IMG/VR virus record: IMGVR_UViG_3300029319_000338
Location: 1 to 29,239 of that record
DNA from: a virus
Direction: 5' to 3' (one strand)
Length of the DNA: 29,239 bases
A program made the position numbers and the translations under genes. Shown piece by piece: positions 11,239 through 25,195 of the stretch. A model generated the notes under the pieces. It made no database searches and was not told where the DNA came from. It saw only the letters and a list, made by a program, of their open reading frames with translations. Position 1 is the first letter of the stretch. Each line of letters starts with the position of its first letter.

Positions 11239-11535
11239 GTGAAAAGTGGTAAAGAGTTAGACCCGTATTTAAGGGCTAGAATAGGCGAGGCAAGATTTTT
11301 ATTAGAACAATTAATAAAACCTAGTAATCCGAGCGGCACAAAGAGAGTGTACTATCTCGGTAATTTCCAAAAAGATGTACTTGATAACTTCACAGAAAAA
11401 CAGGCAAATAAAATCTTTGCGATTATGGACAAGTTTAAAAAAGATGTTCATATGTTTCAGAAGAAAGTACCTTCGTTTACAGATGCGGACGGTGTAGAGT
11501 GGTCAGGTTACGAATACATAGGAGTAAAAAAATGA
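11239..11535 (+). CDS. Hypothetical protein, GTG start
   Basis: 98 residues from a GTG at 11239, the first usable start after the SprT-like gene; purine-rich sequence upstream (AGAGTGGTGTGGT) gives a weak ribosome site. The protein (ELDPYLRARIGEARFLLEQLIKPSNP ... FTEKQANKIFAIMDKFKKDVHMFQKKVPSFTDADGVEW) is mainly helical, with no known motif. It overlaps the glucosaminidase start by 4 bases. No function is assigned. Confidence 0.65.
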   Translation: MKSGKELDPYLRARIGEARFLLEQLIKPSNPSGTKRVYYLGNFQKDVLDNFTEKQANKIFAIMDKFKKDVHMFQKKVPSFTDADGVEWSGYEYIGVKK

Positions 11536-21487: not shown

Positions 21488-21552
21488 AAAAACTTTGGAA
21501 CAAAATAATAGAAAAACTATTTGGCAAAAGATGTCAATGTAAGGACAAGTAA
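21484..21552 (+). CDS. 22-residue micro-ORF with CxC
   Basis: MKKLWNKIIEKLFGKRCQCK then DK. It joins the micro-ORF before it by ATGA and the gp54 start by TAATG. A short amphipathic helix is followed by Cys-x-Cys. Similar short sequences occur in marine phages in my recollection; function unknown. Confidence 0.45.
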   Translation: MKKLWNKIIEKLFGKRCQCKDK

Positions 21553-22508
21553 TGGCAATTTTAAGAGGCGGAAAAAGAATTGGTGGTTTTGATATACGAA
21601 TAGGTCTACCTAGAGATAGAAGTTTAGATGACGTACAATCAGATCCAAGATTAAGACAGAAAGCTGGTGGCAATCCTGAAACTACTATGGGTAGGTTTCA
21701 AGCGATGGTTAACGAGGCAGAAGGCTTTCAAAGAAAAGCTAGGTTCTATGTAGAGTTTGGTGTGCCAAGAGGCGTGGTTGATGACGGTAGAACAACTATG
21801 GCAGATGAGTTTCAAGGTTTCTCAACGTCAGTTGATACAGAGGTAATGAGAGCTGATACAACAAAAAGACGAGTACAAGCATTTTGTAGAGAGATTGCAA
21901 TGCCTAGTAGAGAGGCCATACAAAAAGAAATTAAACATAATGGTCCGACAAGAAAATTTGTATATAATTATACCACACCAGAAATCACTGCTACGTTTTA
22001 CACAGATAAGTTTATGAGAGAGAGAACTTTTTTTGAAATATGGCAGAAAACAGCATTTAGTAATACAACACATAATATTAATTACTATGATAATTATGTT
22101 TCACCAATTGACATATATGCATTAGGTAGTTTTGCTAGTAGAGATGAGAGAGATGATGTGACATATGCTGTGAGATTATTTGACTGTTATCCAAGATTAA
22201 TAAGTGAGGTTACATTTAACCACGATGCGAATGAAGTACAAACATTTACAGTCACATTTTCATTTAGAAATTGGGTTAATTACTTCATAGATAGAGCTGG
22301 AACAATACAATTAGGAGAATCAGATTTTAGACAACCTACAGTAAAAAGAGCTGGAGGTATATTCGGTGGACTAATAAGTAAGTTGCCGCCTGAAATAAGA
22401 AGAGCAGGGCGAGACGTATTGAATGAGTTGAGAAGAAGAGCACCGATAGGTAGAGTAACTGGTGGTAGAGTATTCCCACCATTTAGAATACCACCACTAA
22501 ATATTTAA
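21552..22508 (+). CDS. gp54: gp54-like baseplate tail-tube initiator
   Basis: 318 residues, against 320 in T4. The part FQRKARFYVEFGVPRGVV ... VQAFCREIAMPSREAIQKEIKHNGPTRKFVYNYTTPEITATFYTDKFMRERTFFEIWQKTAF ... NYYDNYVSPIDIYALG ... YAVRLFDCYPRLISEVTFNHDANEVQTFTVTFSFRNW has the tail-tube fold pattern, also found in gp19 and gp54. gp54 sits on gp48 and starts polymerisation of the tail tube. The C-terminus is Arg/Pro/Gly-rich. AAGGAC gives the ribosome site. Position before gp26 and the tape measure fits a tail operon. A tail-tube paralogue cannot be fully excluded, but length and context favour gp54. Confidence 0.82.
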   Translation: MAILRGGKRIGGFDIRIGLPRDRSLDDVQSDPRLRQKAGGNPETTMGRFQAMVNEAEGFQRKARFYVEFGVPRGVVDDGRTTMADEFQGFSTSVDTEVMRADTTKRRVQAFCREIAMPSREAIQKEIKHNGPTRKFVYNYTTPEITATFYTDKFMRERTFFEIWQKTAFSNTTHNINYYDNYVSPIDIYALGSFASRDERDDVTYAVRLFDCYPRLISEVTFNHDANEVQTFTVTFSFRNWVNYFIDRAGTIQLGESDFRQPTVKRAGGIFGGLISKLPPEIRRAGRDVLNELRRRAPIGRVTGGRVFPPFRIPPLNI

Positions 22509-22525
22509 TGTAATAAGGAGATATA

Positions 22526-23242
22526 ATGGCGTTACCAACGATTGAGACACCGAGATATGAATTGACTTTGCCATCGCAAGATGTTAAAGTACAATACAGA
22601 CCTTTCCTAGTCAAAGAAGAAAAGATACTTTTGGTGGCTATGGAATCCAAAGACAATAAACAAATAATATCAGCAACAAAAGACATATTGAAAGCTTGTA
22701 CTTTTGATAAAATAGATGTAGAAAAGTTACCTATGTTTGACATAGAATATCTTTTATTACAAATTAGAAGTAGATCAGTAGGTGAGGTTGCTAATTTTAA
22801 AGTTATTTGTCCAGATGATAAACAGACTGCTGCTGATGTAGAAGTTGATATATCAAAAGTAGAAGTACAAGTAGATGATGACCACAATAATAGAGTTGTT
22901 ATTGATGAAAAAAGAGACTTAGGTTTAGTGCTAAACTATCCATCGCTAGAGATAACCAAGGCTGGTTTTGATGTAAATAGTGCAAACGTGGATACTATGT
23001 TCAATGTAGTATCAAGTTGTATTGACCACATCTTTGAAGGAGATAAAACATATCCTGCGAAAGATAGCACACAGCAAGAACTTAAAGAGTTTTTAGAAGG
23101 TTTATCACAGGGTGCATTTTCAAAGATTAAAAAATTCTTTGATACGATGCCACAATTGAGACACGAAGTTGAGGTTACAAATCCTAAAACAGGTGTAAAA
23201 AGTAAAGTAACATTTAAGGGATTACAAGATTTTTTTCAATAA
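22526..23242 (+). CDS. gp26: gp26-like baseplate hub/tail assembly protein (zero-frame product)
   Basis: 238 residues, against 208 in T4. MALPTIETPRYELTLPSQDVKVQYRPFLVKEEKILLVAMESKDNKQII and VEKLPMFDIEYLLLQIRSRSVGEV match the gp26 family of marine T4-like phages. The family acts at the baseplate hub and tail assembly; its order directly before the tape measure resembles the lambda G chaperone. AAGGAG lies 8 nt before the ATG. The last codons are GAT-TTT-TTT-CAA-TAA, a slippery run that would allow -1 shifting into a 62-codon extension. See the frameshift feature. Confidence 0.82.
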   Translation: MALPTIETPRYELTLPSQDVKVQYRPFLVKEEKILLVAMESKDNKQIISATKDILKACTFDKIDVEKLPMFDIEYLLLQIRSRSVGEVANFKVICPDDKQTAADVEVDISKVEVQVDDDHNNRVVIDEKRDLGLVLNYPSLEITKAGFDVNSANVDTMFNVVSSCIDHIFEGDKTYPAKDSTQQELKEFLEGLSQGAFSKIKKFFDTMPQLRHEVEVTNPKTGVKSKVTFKGLQDFFQ

Positions 23243-23424
23243 GCCTGTCTCATAACAGCCTACAGGCCTATTACGAAACCAATTTTGCCCTAATGCAACA
23301 TCATAAATACTCATTGACGGAGTTAGATAATTTATTGCCTTGGGAAAAAGAGATATATGTAGGTATGTTATCTAATTATATTAAAGAAGAAAACGAGAGA
23401 AGAAGACGAGAGGCTAAAAAATAA
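22526..23424 (+). CDS. Predicted -1 frameshift fusion gp26-gp51-like (299 aa)
   Basis: If ribosomes slip back one base after TTT at 23234-23236, translation continues TCA-ATA-AGC and gives SISLSHNSLQAYYETNFALM, then QHHKYSLTELDNLLPWEKE and IYVGMLSNYIKEENERRRRE, ending at the TAA 23422-23424. The extension is open from the slip site without a stop. LSHNSLxxYYxTNFALMQHHKYSLTEL...PWExxIYV is a pattern I associate with the C-terminal part of T4-like gp51 and tail-chaperone T domains. The internal ATG at 23293 has no Shine-Dalgarno, so fusion is the more likely route. T4 gp51 has 249 residues. Untested inference. Confidence 0.65.
23230..23267 (+). promoter_or_regulatory. Programmed -1 frameshift signal: slippery T7 and hairpin
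   Basis: Seven T (23230-23236) phased as T-TTT-TTT fit the X-XXY-YYZ rule. Six nt later, GCCTGT (23243-23248) pairs perfectly with ACAGGC (23262-23267) around a 13-nt loop. Spacer, stem and open -1 frame are all present; efficiency is unknown. Confidence 0.65.
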
Positions 23425-23756
23425 TGAGTGAAGTAGAAGATAAAATTGTTGTACCTGCTGATAAACCAGAGATCAGTAAAAAAGTAAAAGTTGATTTAGA
23501 AGTAGATACATCTGTAAAAGATTTAGGCCCTAATCCATATGCAAAGATAATTCATATGGCTAGAGCAGTTGACGCTTGGAGAATATTTCCAAGATTGTTT
23601 TTGACAGTTTATATTATACTATTATATAAATGTGTAATATGGTATATGAACTTATCTGCACCTACAATGGAACAAAGTGGTTTAATTAGTATTGTAGTTG
23701 GCGCAGGTGCTGCATGGTTTGGTTTATATACAGGGTCAAGTAAAAAGAACAAGTAA
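23424..23756 (+). CDS. Two-helix membrane protein, holin-like candidate
   Basis: 110 residues. After an acidic cytoplasmic part (residues 1-45), two hydrophobic helices (LFLTVYIILLYKCVIWYMNL and GLISIVVGAGAAWFGLYTG) are separated by a short loop with a charged C-terminus (SSKKNK). AWRIFPRLFL and VVGAGAAWFGLY are strings I recall from marine T4-like genomes in this place. Size and topology fit a holin, but so would a tail or injection membrane factor next to the tape measure. Its ATG overlaps the stop of the frameshift extension (TAATG), not that of gp26 itself. Confidence 0.7.
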   Translation: MSEVEDKIVVPADKPEISKKVKVDLEVDTSVKDLGPNPYAKIIHMARAVDAWRIFPRLFLTVYIILLYKCVIWYMNLSAPTMEQSGLISIVVGAGAAWFGLYTGSSKKNK

Positions 23757-25195
23757 TGGCATTACCATCAACAAGATATAATTTTAAAGGCGGTAAAAAA
23801 GAAGTTGCCGAGGCTGTAGGAGAAATAGGTAAAGCTATATTCTCTCAGGTCACTATGTCTGTTGAGGGCGCTGTAAAAACAGTTGTGCCAAGTGTCTCTG
23901 ATATGGTGGTTGAAATTACAGAGGACTTAAAAACAGGTTCACTGTTAAAGTTTGAAGAAGCAATGAAGAAAATAGACACGCTAGTTAATAAATTAGGTGT
24001 TGATATTAGCATGTATAGTAAAGAACTAGGTGACTTCTTAAAAATGAGACAAGAAAAATCTATCAAATCTGAAGAAACTGTTAATCAATTAAGAGAGAAA
24101 AATATTATGGCCCAAGTAAATCAAATGGGCGAGGTACAAATACTTAATAAAAGACAAGTGCAAGAACAAGAAGAATTTTTAAGATCATATAATAATGAAA
24201 TTAGAACAGCAGAAAAAACTATAACATCACTATCTAAAAGACAACAAAAAGGTAGAGAATTAACAGAAGAACAACAAGCAGAATTACTAAAAGCAAACAA
24301 AACACTTATTGAGACTACTGAAAAAAGAAATAAGGTATTAACAACACTTAACAAAACAGAATCAGAAGATACAAGAACATTTAGACAAAAGTTTGGTGAT
24401 GCGATAGATGAATATGTGCCAGATGGTTTAAGAGATATTGGTGCTGCGTTTACAGAAGGCTTGATGGCGCCATTTACAGCAATACAAGAGTTAGGTATGT
24501 TATTTGGTAGTTTACTAAAACCACTTAAAGCGTTACCAAAATTAATGATCGCATTTTCTACTGGTGTCATATCTGCTATTGTTGCGTTGGCACCATTTAT
24601 AGGTATTGCTTTAGCAGTGATCGCTGGTATTATTGCATTGACAGCAGCAGTATTATATGTTAGAAATAACTTTGATGAGTTAAGAGAAAAACTAGTCACA
24701 TTTGGCGAAAAGATTATGGAAATACCTGGTAATATTGCTGACTTCTTTAAAGGTATATTTACACAAATTAAGAACTTCTTTATAGATGCAATCAATGGTG
24801 TCATAACATTAATTAATAAAGTACCAGGTGTTGAGATTGAAAAATTTGAAAGAACACCTGATGCAGATAGTGTTTCTGCAACAACGATAGAGCCAGCAGC
24901 TACGAATGTAGAAGCTAGTGAAGGTGCAGAAATTGTTCCTAATGTATCAGATGTCACTGCAGAGACAGAAGGTGAAGGTGTTAGTAAATTTGATATGTTT
25001 AAAAATATGTTAAAAATGTTAATGCCACAAAATAATGATTTAGTGCCTGTAATGGAAGCAAACGCTGGTGGTGCAACTATTATAGACAACTCTGTGAAGT
25101 CTGTCAATCAAAATAATGCAAATCAAAACATATCATTAGAGAGTAGAAACACTGATAATAGTTTCCACATCACAAATAGATACCAAGACGTTTAA
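23756..25195 (+). CDS. Tail tape measure protein (gp29 position)
   Basis: 479 residues, against 590 for T4 gp29. The N-terminal half is helical and coiled-coil (residues about 75-205, with KSIKSEETVNQLREKN, EEQQAELLKANKTL). A hydrophobic block follows (about 230-305: LMIAFSTGVISAIVALAPFIGIALAVIAGIIALTAAVLY), typical of tape measures, then an Ala/Glu/Asn-rich tail. It follows gp26 and its extension, the usual order chaperone-tape measure. It should set tail length and take part in DNA injection; if length scales as in other phages, the tail is shorter than T4's. Sequence similarity to gp29 is not clear by eye; context carries the call. Confidence 0.75.
   Translation: MALPSTRYNFKGGKKEVAEAVGEIGKAIFSQVTMSVEGAVKTVVPSVSDMVVEITEDLKTGSLLKFEEAMKKIDTLVNKLGVDISMYSKELGDFLKMRQEKSIKSEETVNQLREKNIMAQVNQMGEVQILNKRQVQEQEEFLRSYNNEIRTAEKTITSLSKRQQKGRELTEEQQAELLKANKTLIETTEKRNKVLTTLNKTESEDTRTFRQKFGDAIDEYVPDGLRDIGAAFTEGLMAPFTAIQELGMLFGSLLKPLKALPKLMIAFSTGVISAIVALAPFIGIALAVIAGIIALTAAVLYVRNNFDELREKLVTFGEKIMEIPGNIADFFKGIFTQIKNFFIDAINGVITLINKVPGVEIEKFERTPDADSVSATTIEPAATNVEASEGAEIVPNVSDVTAETEGEGVSKFDMFKNMLKMLMPQNNDLVPVMEANAGGATIIDNSVKSVNQNNANQNISLESRNTDNSFHITNRYQDV

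Follow-up and report, generated by a model that had tools for sequence, protein, structure and literature searches.

The locus considered here raises the question of how a phage translates a protein domain that lies directly behind the end of a gene, in another reading frame. In the 29,239-base virus record analysed here (hereafter the window), a T4 gp26-like gene is followed in the -1 frame by a gp51-like domain (the C domain), for which a usable start is lacking in the window as well as in many relatives. We propose, with a probability of about 93% judged from sequence, that this locus of a marine T4-type phage makes a pair of tail assembly chaperones (TACs) of the lambda G/GT type by -1 frameshifting. 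A preliminary description of this DNA had claimed such a shift, fusing gp26 to a gp51/T-like domain, and we find it supported by the conservation of the slippery run, of the -1 frame and of a hairpin, as well as by the lack of a usable start.

The gp26 gene (22526..23242, + strand) of the window, whose nearest named relative at this locus is Pelagibacter phage Mosig, encodes the short chaperone TAC-N (238 aa) and was identified by PF12322, phrog_150, a structural model and its ribosome site. Its 3' end reads CAA GAT TTT TTT CAA TAA, with the stop codon at 23240-23242, and the phase of the run of seven T is that of a tandem -1 slippery heptamer, GA[T TTT TTT] CAA TAA. This heptamer (T-TTT-TTT, 23230..23236, + strand, in gp26 phase) ends three bases before the gp26 stop, as previously noted, and falls within the region open in both frames; the -1 frame is free of stops from 23218 to 23421, its flanking stop codons lying at 23215 and 23422. 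In translation, a -1 slip adds 62 codons to gp26 (TAC-C; 23236..23424 with the stop, + strand) and yields a 299-residue fusion, TAC-NC, in agreement with the earlier reading; its predicted junction peptides include GLQDFFSISLSH. Seven-T runs occur twice on the + strand of the window, and when slippery heptamers near the end of long frames were considered throughout it, a long -1 frame was entered only here and at the A7 at 11526. The latter run (11526-11535) overlaps the 3' end of an ORF (11239-11535), and a move into the -1 frame there leads to the following long ORF, which extends to 12215. Although this run is shaped like a slippery site, it resembles an ordinary ATGA gene overlap.

Profile searches assigned gp26 to PF12322 (E 1.1e-63) and phrog_150 (E 1.6e-69), and the -1 domain to phrog_634 (baseplate hub assembly catalyst, E 1.5e-28); the 299-residue fusion matched phrog_150 over residues 1-284. 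T4 gp51 matches phrog_150 over nearly its full length, phrog_634 at its end and PF12322 over residues 1-201, and is therefore a natural N-C fusion, whereas T4 gp26 matches the N part alone. The -1 domain is homologous to the C-terminal part of T4 gp51, both matching phrog_634. A Pfam search with the window's C domain gave no match, and a scan of 22 such C domains gave scattered chance hits only. In the AlphaFold2 model of gp26 (pLDDT 88.6), residues 1-85 cover 83 of the 107 residues of the HK97 TAC 2ob9 (Z 7.4, rmsd 3.9). When residues 1-87 were compared with 754 chains using VIA-align, where a Z below 8 can reflect a common arrangement, the best three were 3fgx (Z 7.8), 2ob9 (7.4) and YqbN 3klu (6.6), followed by a chain at Z 4.7; 3fgx and 3klu are small bacterial proteins. 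Given this clear step in Z, and since the match spans most of the HK97 protein, we favour, with moderate confidence in what the model suggests, a true TAC fold for residues 1-85, as in HK97. A Foldseek search of gp26 against the PDB returned nothing significant, and a PDB sequence search found nothing.

Two scans for relatives provided 160 marine ones, to which named phages of other hosts were added; as these loci share ancestry, the counts over them are not independent trials. The sequence T-TTT-TTY stands in phase at all 178 loci where gp26 ends with a Phe-Phe pair. Among the 126 distinct closed junctions, the heptamer is TTTTTTC in 91 and TTTTTTT in 35, and the -1 frame is open in every one, for 56-68 codons. 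Two observations indicate that the heptamer is not explained by protein constraint alone. First, 126/126 junctions use TTT for the first Phe, versus 78% elsewhere in gp26. Second, the third base of the preceding codon is T in 126/126, though the residue encoded is Asp, Ser, Asn or Ala. Past the gp26 stop, the pN/pS of the -1 frame is 0.27 in the pelagiphage-like group and 0.14 in the cyanophage-like group, and the two other frames show values of about 1 or more and 4-5 stops per 38 codons; judged from these ratios, the -1 codons are under purifying selection.

A slippery heptamer (T-TTT-TTY or, in RHph_Y68, T-TTT-TTG) and a gp51-like -1 frame are also found in Mosig, P-SSM2, S-PM2, nt-1, pf16, phiM7, RHph_Y68, Mendera, Milchi, Aswh_1, OLIVR5 and Aeh1. 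The alignment of homologues, proposed in the preliminary description as a check, showed the run and the open -1 frame to be kept in every motif-bearing relative, and the hairpin in most. The same description had placed this arrangement in a T4-type phage, which is correct, but the arrangement is not special to the window, being general in the sampled T4-like phages outside the T4 type. The Phe-Phe pair is absent at four distant loci, RHph_Y68 (T-TTT-TTG) and the Ackermannviridae-like Menlow, TSW001 and K364. Menlow (Ackermannviridae) and the similar TSW001, K364 and Cygsa01 carry, after gp26, a -1 domain with an MPWH motif and no T6 heptamer (L177 2289-2462, L173 2223-2435, L174 2208-2402 and L194 1398-1679), which in Menlow bears no annotation; judging from their sequences, the shift site of these four phages, if any, would be of another type. 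At one further locus (L038 3706-3753), a run of eight T makes the exact slip position ambiguous.

These comparisons bear on other explanations of the locus. First, the C domain might be a separate small gene, expressed from a start of its own or through reinitiation once the gp26 stop has been reached, as suggested by its annotation as a gene of its own (GenBank gp51 in cyanophages) in P-SSM2, S-PM2, Mosig and others, and by the ATG lying a few codons past the slip or the gp26 stop in many cyanophage junctions, which could permit reinitiation. However, the first -1-frame ATG after the slip in the window (23293) lies inside the C domain and lacks a ribosome site, as had been stated before, with an anti-SD pairing of 0.1 kcal/mol versus the strong -9.3 kcal/mol upstream of gp26. 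Furthermore, 54 of the 126 junctions have no ATG, GTG or TTG within the first 13 codons of the -1 frame, the heptamer and the open frame being always kept, and T4 gp51 is a natural fusion of the two parts, so that we consider a separate gene very unlikely. Second, slippage of the RNA polymerase on the T7, a homopolymer that the window does possess, could add a base to some messages and so fuse the frames. This appears extremely improbable, since 91 of the 126 junctions have only T6 followed by C, what is kept is the codon phase and not the run length, and a selected hairpin at a fixed spacing fits ribosomal shifting. Third, the frames directly adjoin each other, and an additional base would turn them into a single open frame, as in a sequencing error or a broken fusion gene; this possibility is refuted by the occurrence of the same frame change in 126 distinct junctions and many isolate genomes.

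Returning to ribosomal frameshifting, the hairpin is found, as first described, six nt after the heptamer (23243..23267, + strand), with a 6-bp stem GCCTGT/ACAGGC (23243-23248 paired with 23262-23267) that folding extends by four outer pairs. Its energy in the window is -8.7 kcal/mol, with a z of about -1.9 to -2.1 versus synonymous shuffles. Over the 126 junctions, the fold after the slip has a mean z of -3.6 on the same comparison, 94% being below -1.5, versus mean z values of -0.6 to 0.0 for control stretches upstream and downstream. In the window's group, one stem pair is compensatory (C-G in 26 sequences, G-C in 5), the change coupling a synonymous Leu change with a Gln to Glu replacement. 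The P-SSM2-like group has a 10-bp stem at the same spacing, in a different pairing register, one pair of which is U-A in 25, G-C in 7 and A-U in 3, and is unpaired in 15 sequences; RNAalifold recovered the outer part alone of the cyanophage hairpin. An Rfam scan of the window found no family at threshold. From the folding and covariation data, we consider that the downstream hairpin is under selection; it is weak or absent in pf16, Milchi, Aswh_1, syn9 and Desulfovibrio phage 7757.

The run, the hairpin and the open frame reported in the preliminary description all stand, but that description was incomplete in overlooking a ribosome-site-like stretch upstream of the slip, AAGGGA (23216..23221, + strand), which lies 8 nt before the heptamer and was recognised from anti-SD pairing and codon bias. 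Its counterpart in many cyanophages is GAGGGA. Across the 126 junctions, anti-SD pairing peaks at this stretch (-6.5 versus -4.4 kcal/mol in synonymous shuffles), the pairing of the window's own AAGGGA being modest (-5.2 versus about -4 in shuffles). GAG, AAG, GGA and GGG codons are enriched in the stretch: GAG is used in 60 cases versus GAA in 8 (GAG, 29% elsewhere), and the Gly codons are GGA or GGG in 93 of 125, versus 32% elsewhere. This bias is strong at pelagiphage-like and P-SSM2-like loci, which make up the two main marine groups. In the comparison with synonymous shuffles, the upstream pairing is not above chance in nt-1, phiM7, Mendera, Milchi, syn9 and others. This stretch may be a stimulator of slipping. 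Because the hairpin and the upstream stretch are missing or at chance level in several lineages, the heptamer looks like the constant part of the signal, and the two other elements resemble lineage-specific aids, neither of which would be essential.

The T4 type served as a control, in which a T4 gp26 query reached six IMG/VR loci and a few of these were taken together with named phages. T4, 44RR, JSE, Apostate and Kosakonia phage 305 each carry gp26 apart from a second, full-length gene of the gp51 type, and the two genes have diverged. The T4 gp26 end, GGC CTC AAA GAG TTC TTT GAG, has no slippery phase and an early -1 stop, and at gp26 of 44RR, JSE, Apostate and Kosakonia phage 305 we found neither the heptamer nor a gp51-like -1 domain. 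In the sampled genomes, the frameshift signal is absent wherever a separate fused gene is present. We are evenly balanced on the wider proposal that a tripartite signal under selection, made up of ribosome-site-like stretch, T6Y heptamer and hairpin, is the ancestral route to the chaperone pair across T4-like phages, with the hairpin retained in marine lineages even as its sequence and pairing register change, and that the T4 type lost the signal after the split into divergent gp26 and fused gp51.

The neighbourhood of the locus comprises the tail tube gene upstream (21552-22508, phrog_45) and the presumed tape measure gene (23756..25195, + strand, phrog_1272 E 2.6e-7), the expected client, which is the second gene downstream of the chaperone, one small gene lying between. 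This position, together with the domain homologies, identifies a TAC locus. The ATG of the small gene (23424) does overlap the -1 stop (TAATG), as already noticed. The further suggestion that translation of this gene is coupled to shifting is unsupported, the genes of relatives at this place being different and the ATG having a modest ribosome site of its own (anti-SD pairing -5.1). The window's small gene (23424-23756) matches phrog_10198 (unknown function), the deposited relatives of which are mostly from Vibrio phages, including the KVP40 type. In the loci L001-L080, differing small genes occupy the interval between chaperone and tape measure, often starting from the same TAATG.

We propose the following pathway. 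Most ribosomes would end at the gp26 stop, thereby producing the 238-residue TAC-N. The hairpin six bases downstream would hold some ribosomes at the in-frame T-TTT-TTT, as would, probably, the pairing of the 16S tail with AAGGGA upstream. Both Phe tRNAs would then slip back by one base, and translation would proceed through 62 more codons to give the 299-residue TAC-NC. If lambda G/GT is taken as the guide, the long form, as the minor product, would attach to the tape measure via its added domain, and the short form would coat the tape measure, so that the tail tube assembles around the tape measure protein. In this pathway we infer that slipping occurs, how often it does so, what the upstream site contributes and that the tape measure is bound, the lambda analogy being our basis for the ratio of the two forms, for the role of each stimulator and for that binding.

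The lambda G/GT chaperone frameshift was reportedly described by Levin in 1993 and by Xu, Hendrix and Duda in 2004. Similarly to lambda, the present locus has two overlapping frames flanked by the genes for tail tube and tape measure, a proposed -1 shift late in the upstream gene, and predicted short and long products. It differs in its T4 gp26/gp51 family domains, its conserved hairpin and, in some groups, its upstream stretch; moreover, the lambda slippery sequence is G-rich, unlike the T-rich one found here. The dnaX element of E. coli, composed of an upstream ribosome-like site, a slippery heptamer and a downstream hairpin, has the same three-part layout, but it belongs to an unrelated gene and its heptamer is A-rich. 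As for T4 itself, gp26 (N only) is homologous to gp26 of the window and gp51 (N plus C) to the fusion, T4 using two separate, divergent genes without a frameshift signal where the window has one locus and a putative -1 shift.

The title of the 2022 article by Vladimirov, Gautam and Davidson (Virology 566:9) is said to argue for a mechanism other than frameshifting. According to passages of two later papers, these authors recognised T4 gp26 and gp51 as tail assembly chaperones (PMC10885494, PMC12846349). A passage of the PRFect paper, citing Vladimirov 2022, has it that 'some' T4-like phages possess separate short and fused genes (PMC10885494), and one in the phage Adele paper credits the same work with poly-T -1 signals in T4-like TAC-N genes (PMC12846349). 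The latter paper also reports that the TAC frameshift of Vandenendeviridae and Andersonviridae uses GTTTTT; in its relevant passages, the Vandenendeviridae resemble the present case in having a poly-T -1 site ending TAC-N and a -1 frame open in every allele examined, whereas both families differ from it in their slippery motif, and no covarying hairpin is mentioned in those passages (PMC12846349). A frameshift in some T4-like TAC loci thus appears to have been described already. What is apparently new is the three-part signal in marine phages, together with an explanation for the 'truncated' gp51 of cyanophages and the 'missing' gp51 of Aeh1; our literature search, which did not reach the full text of Vladimirov 2022, found no covarying hairpin or upstream stretch described in marine phages.

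Sullivan 2010 reported that cyanophage and marine vibriophage gp51 is shorter by ~200 residues at its N-terminal end, and that Aeh1 has no gp51 (PMC3037559). Both the truncation and the absence would be accounted for by the frameshift, the missing part being gp26. In Aeromonas phage Aeh1 (L191 1177-1383), an unannotated gp51-like -1 domain follows directly after GAT TTT TTC GAC TGA. In many public annotations of abundant marine phages, what would be a single product is divided between two genes. Both gp26 and gp51 were catalogued for a long time as baseplate hub parts of unclear function. The signal would offer a simple handle on how the ratio of the short and long forms is set.
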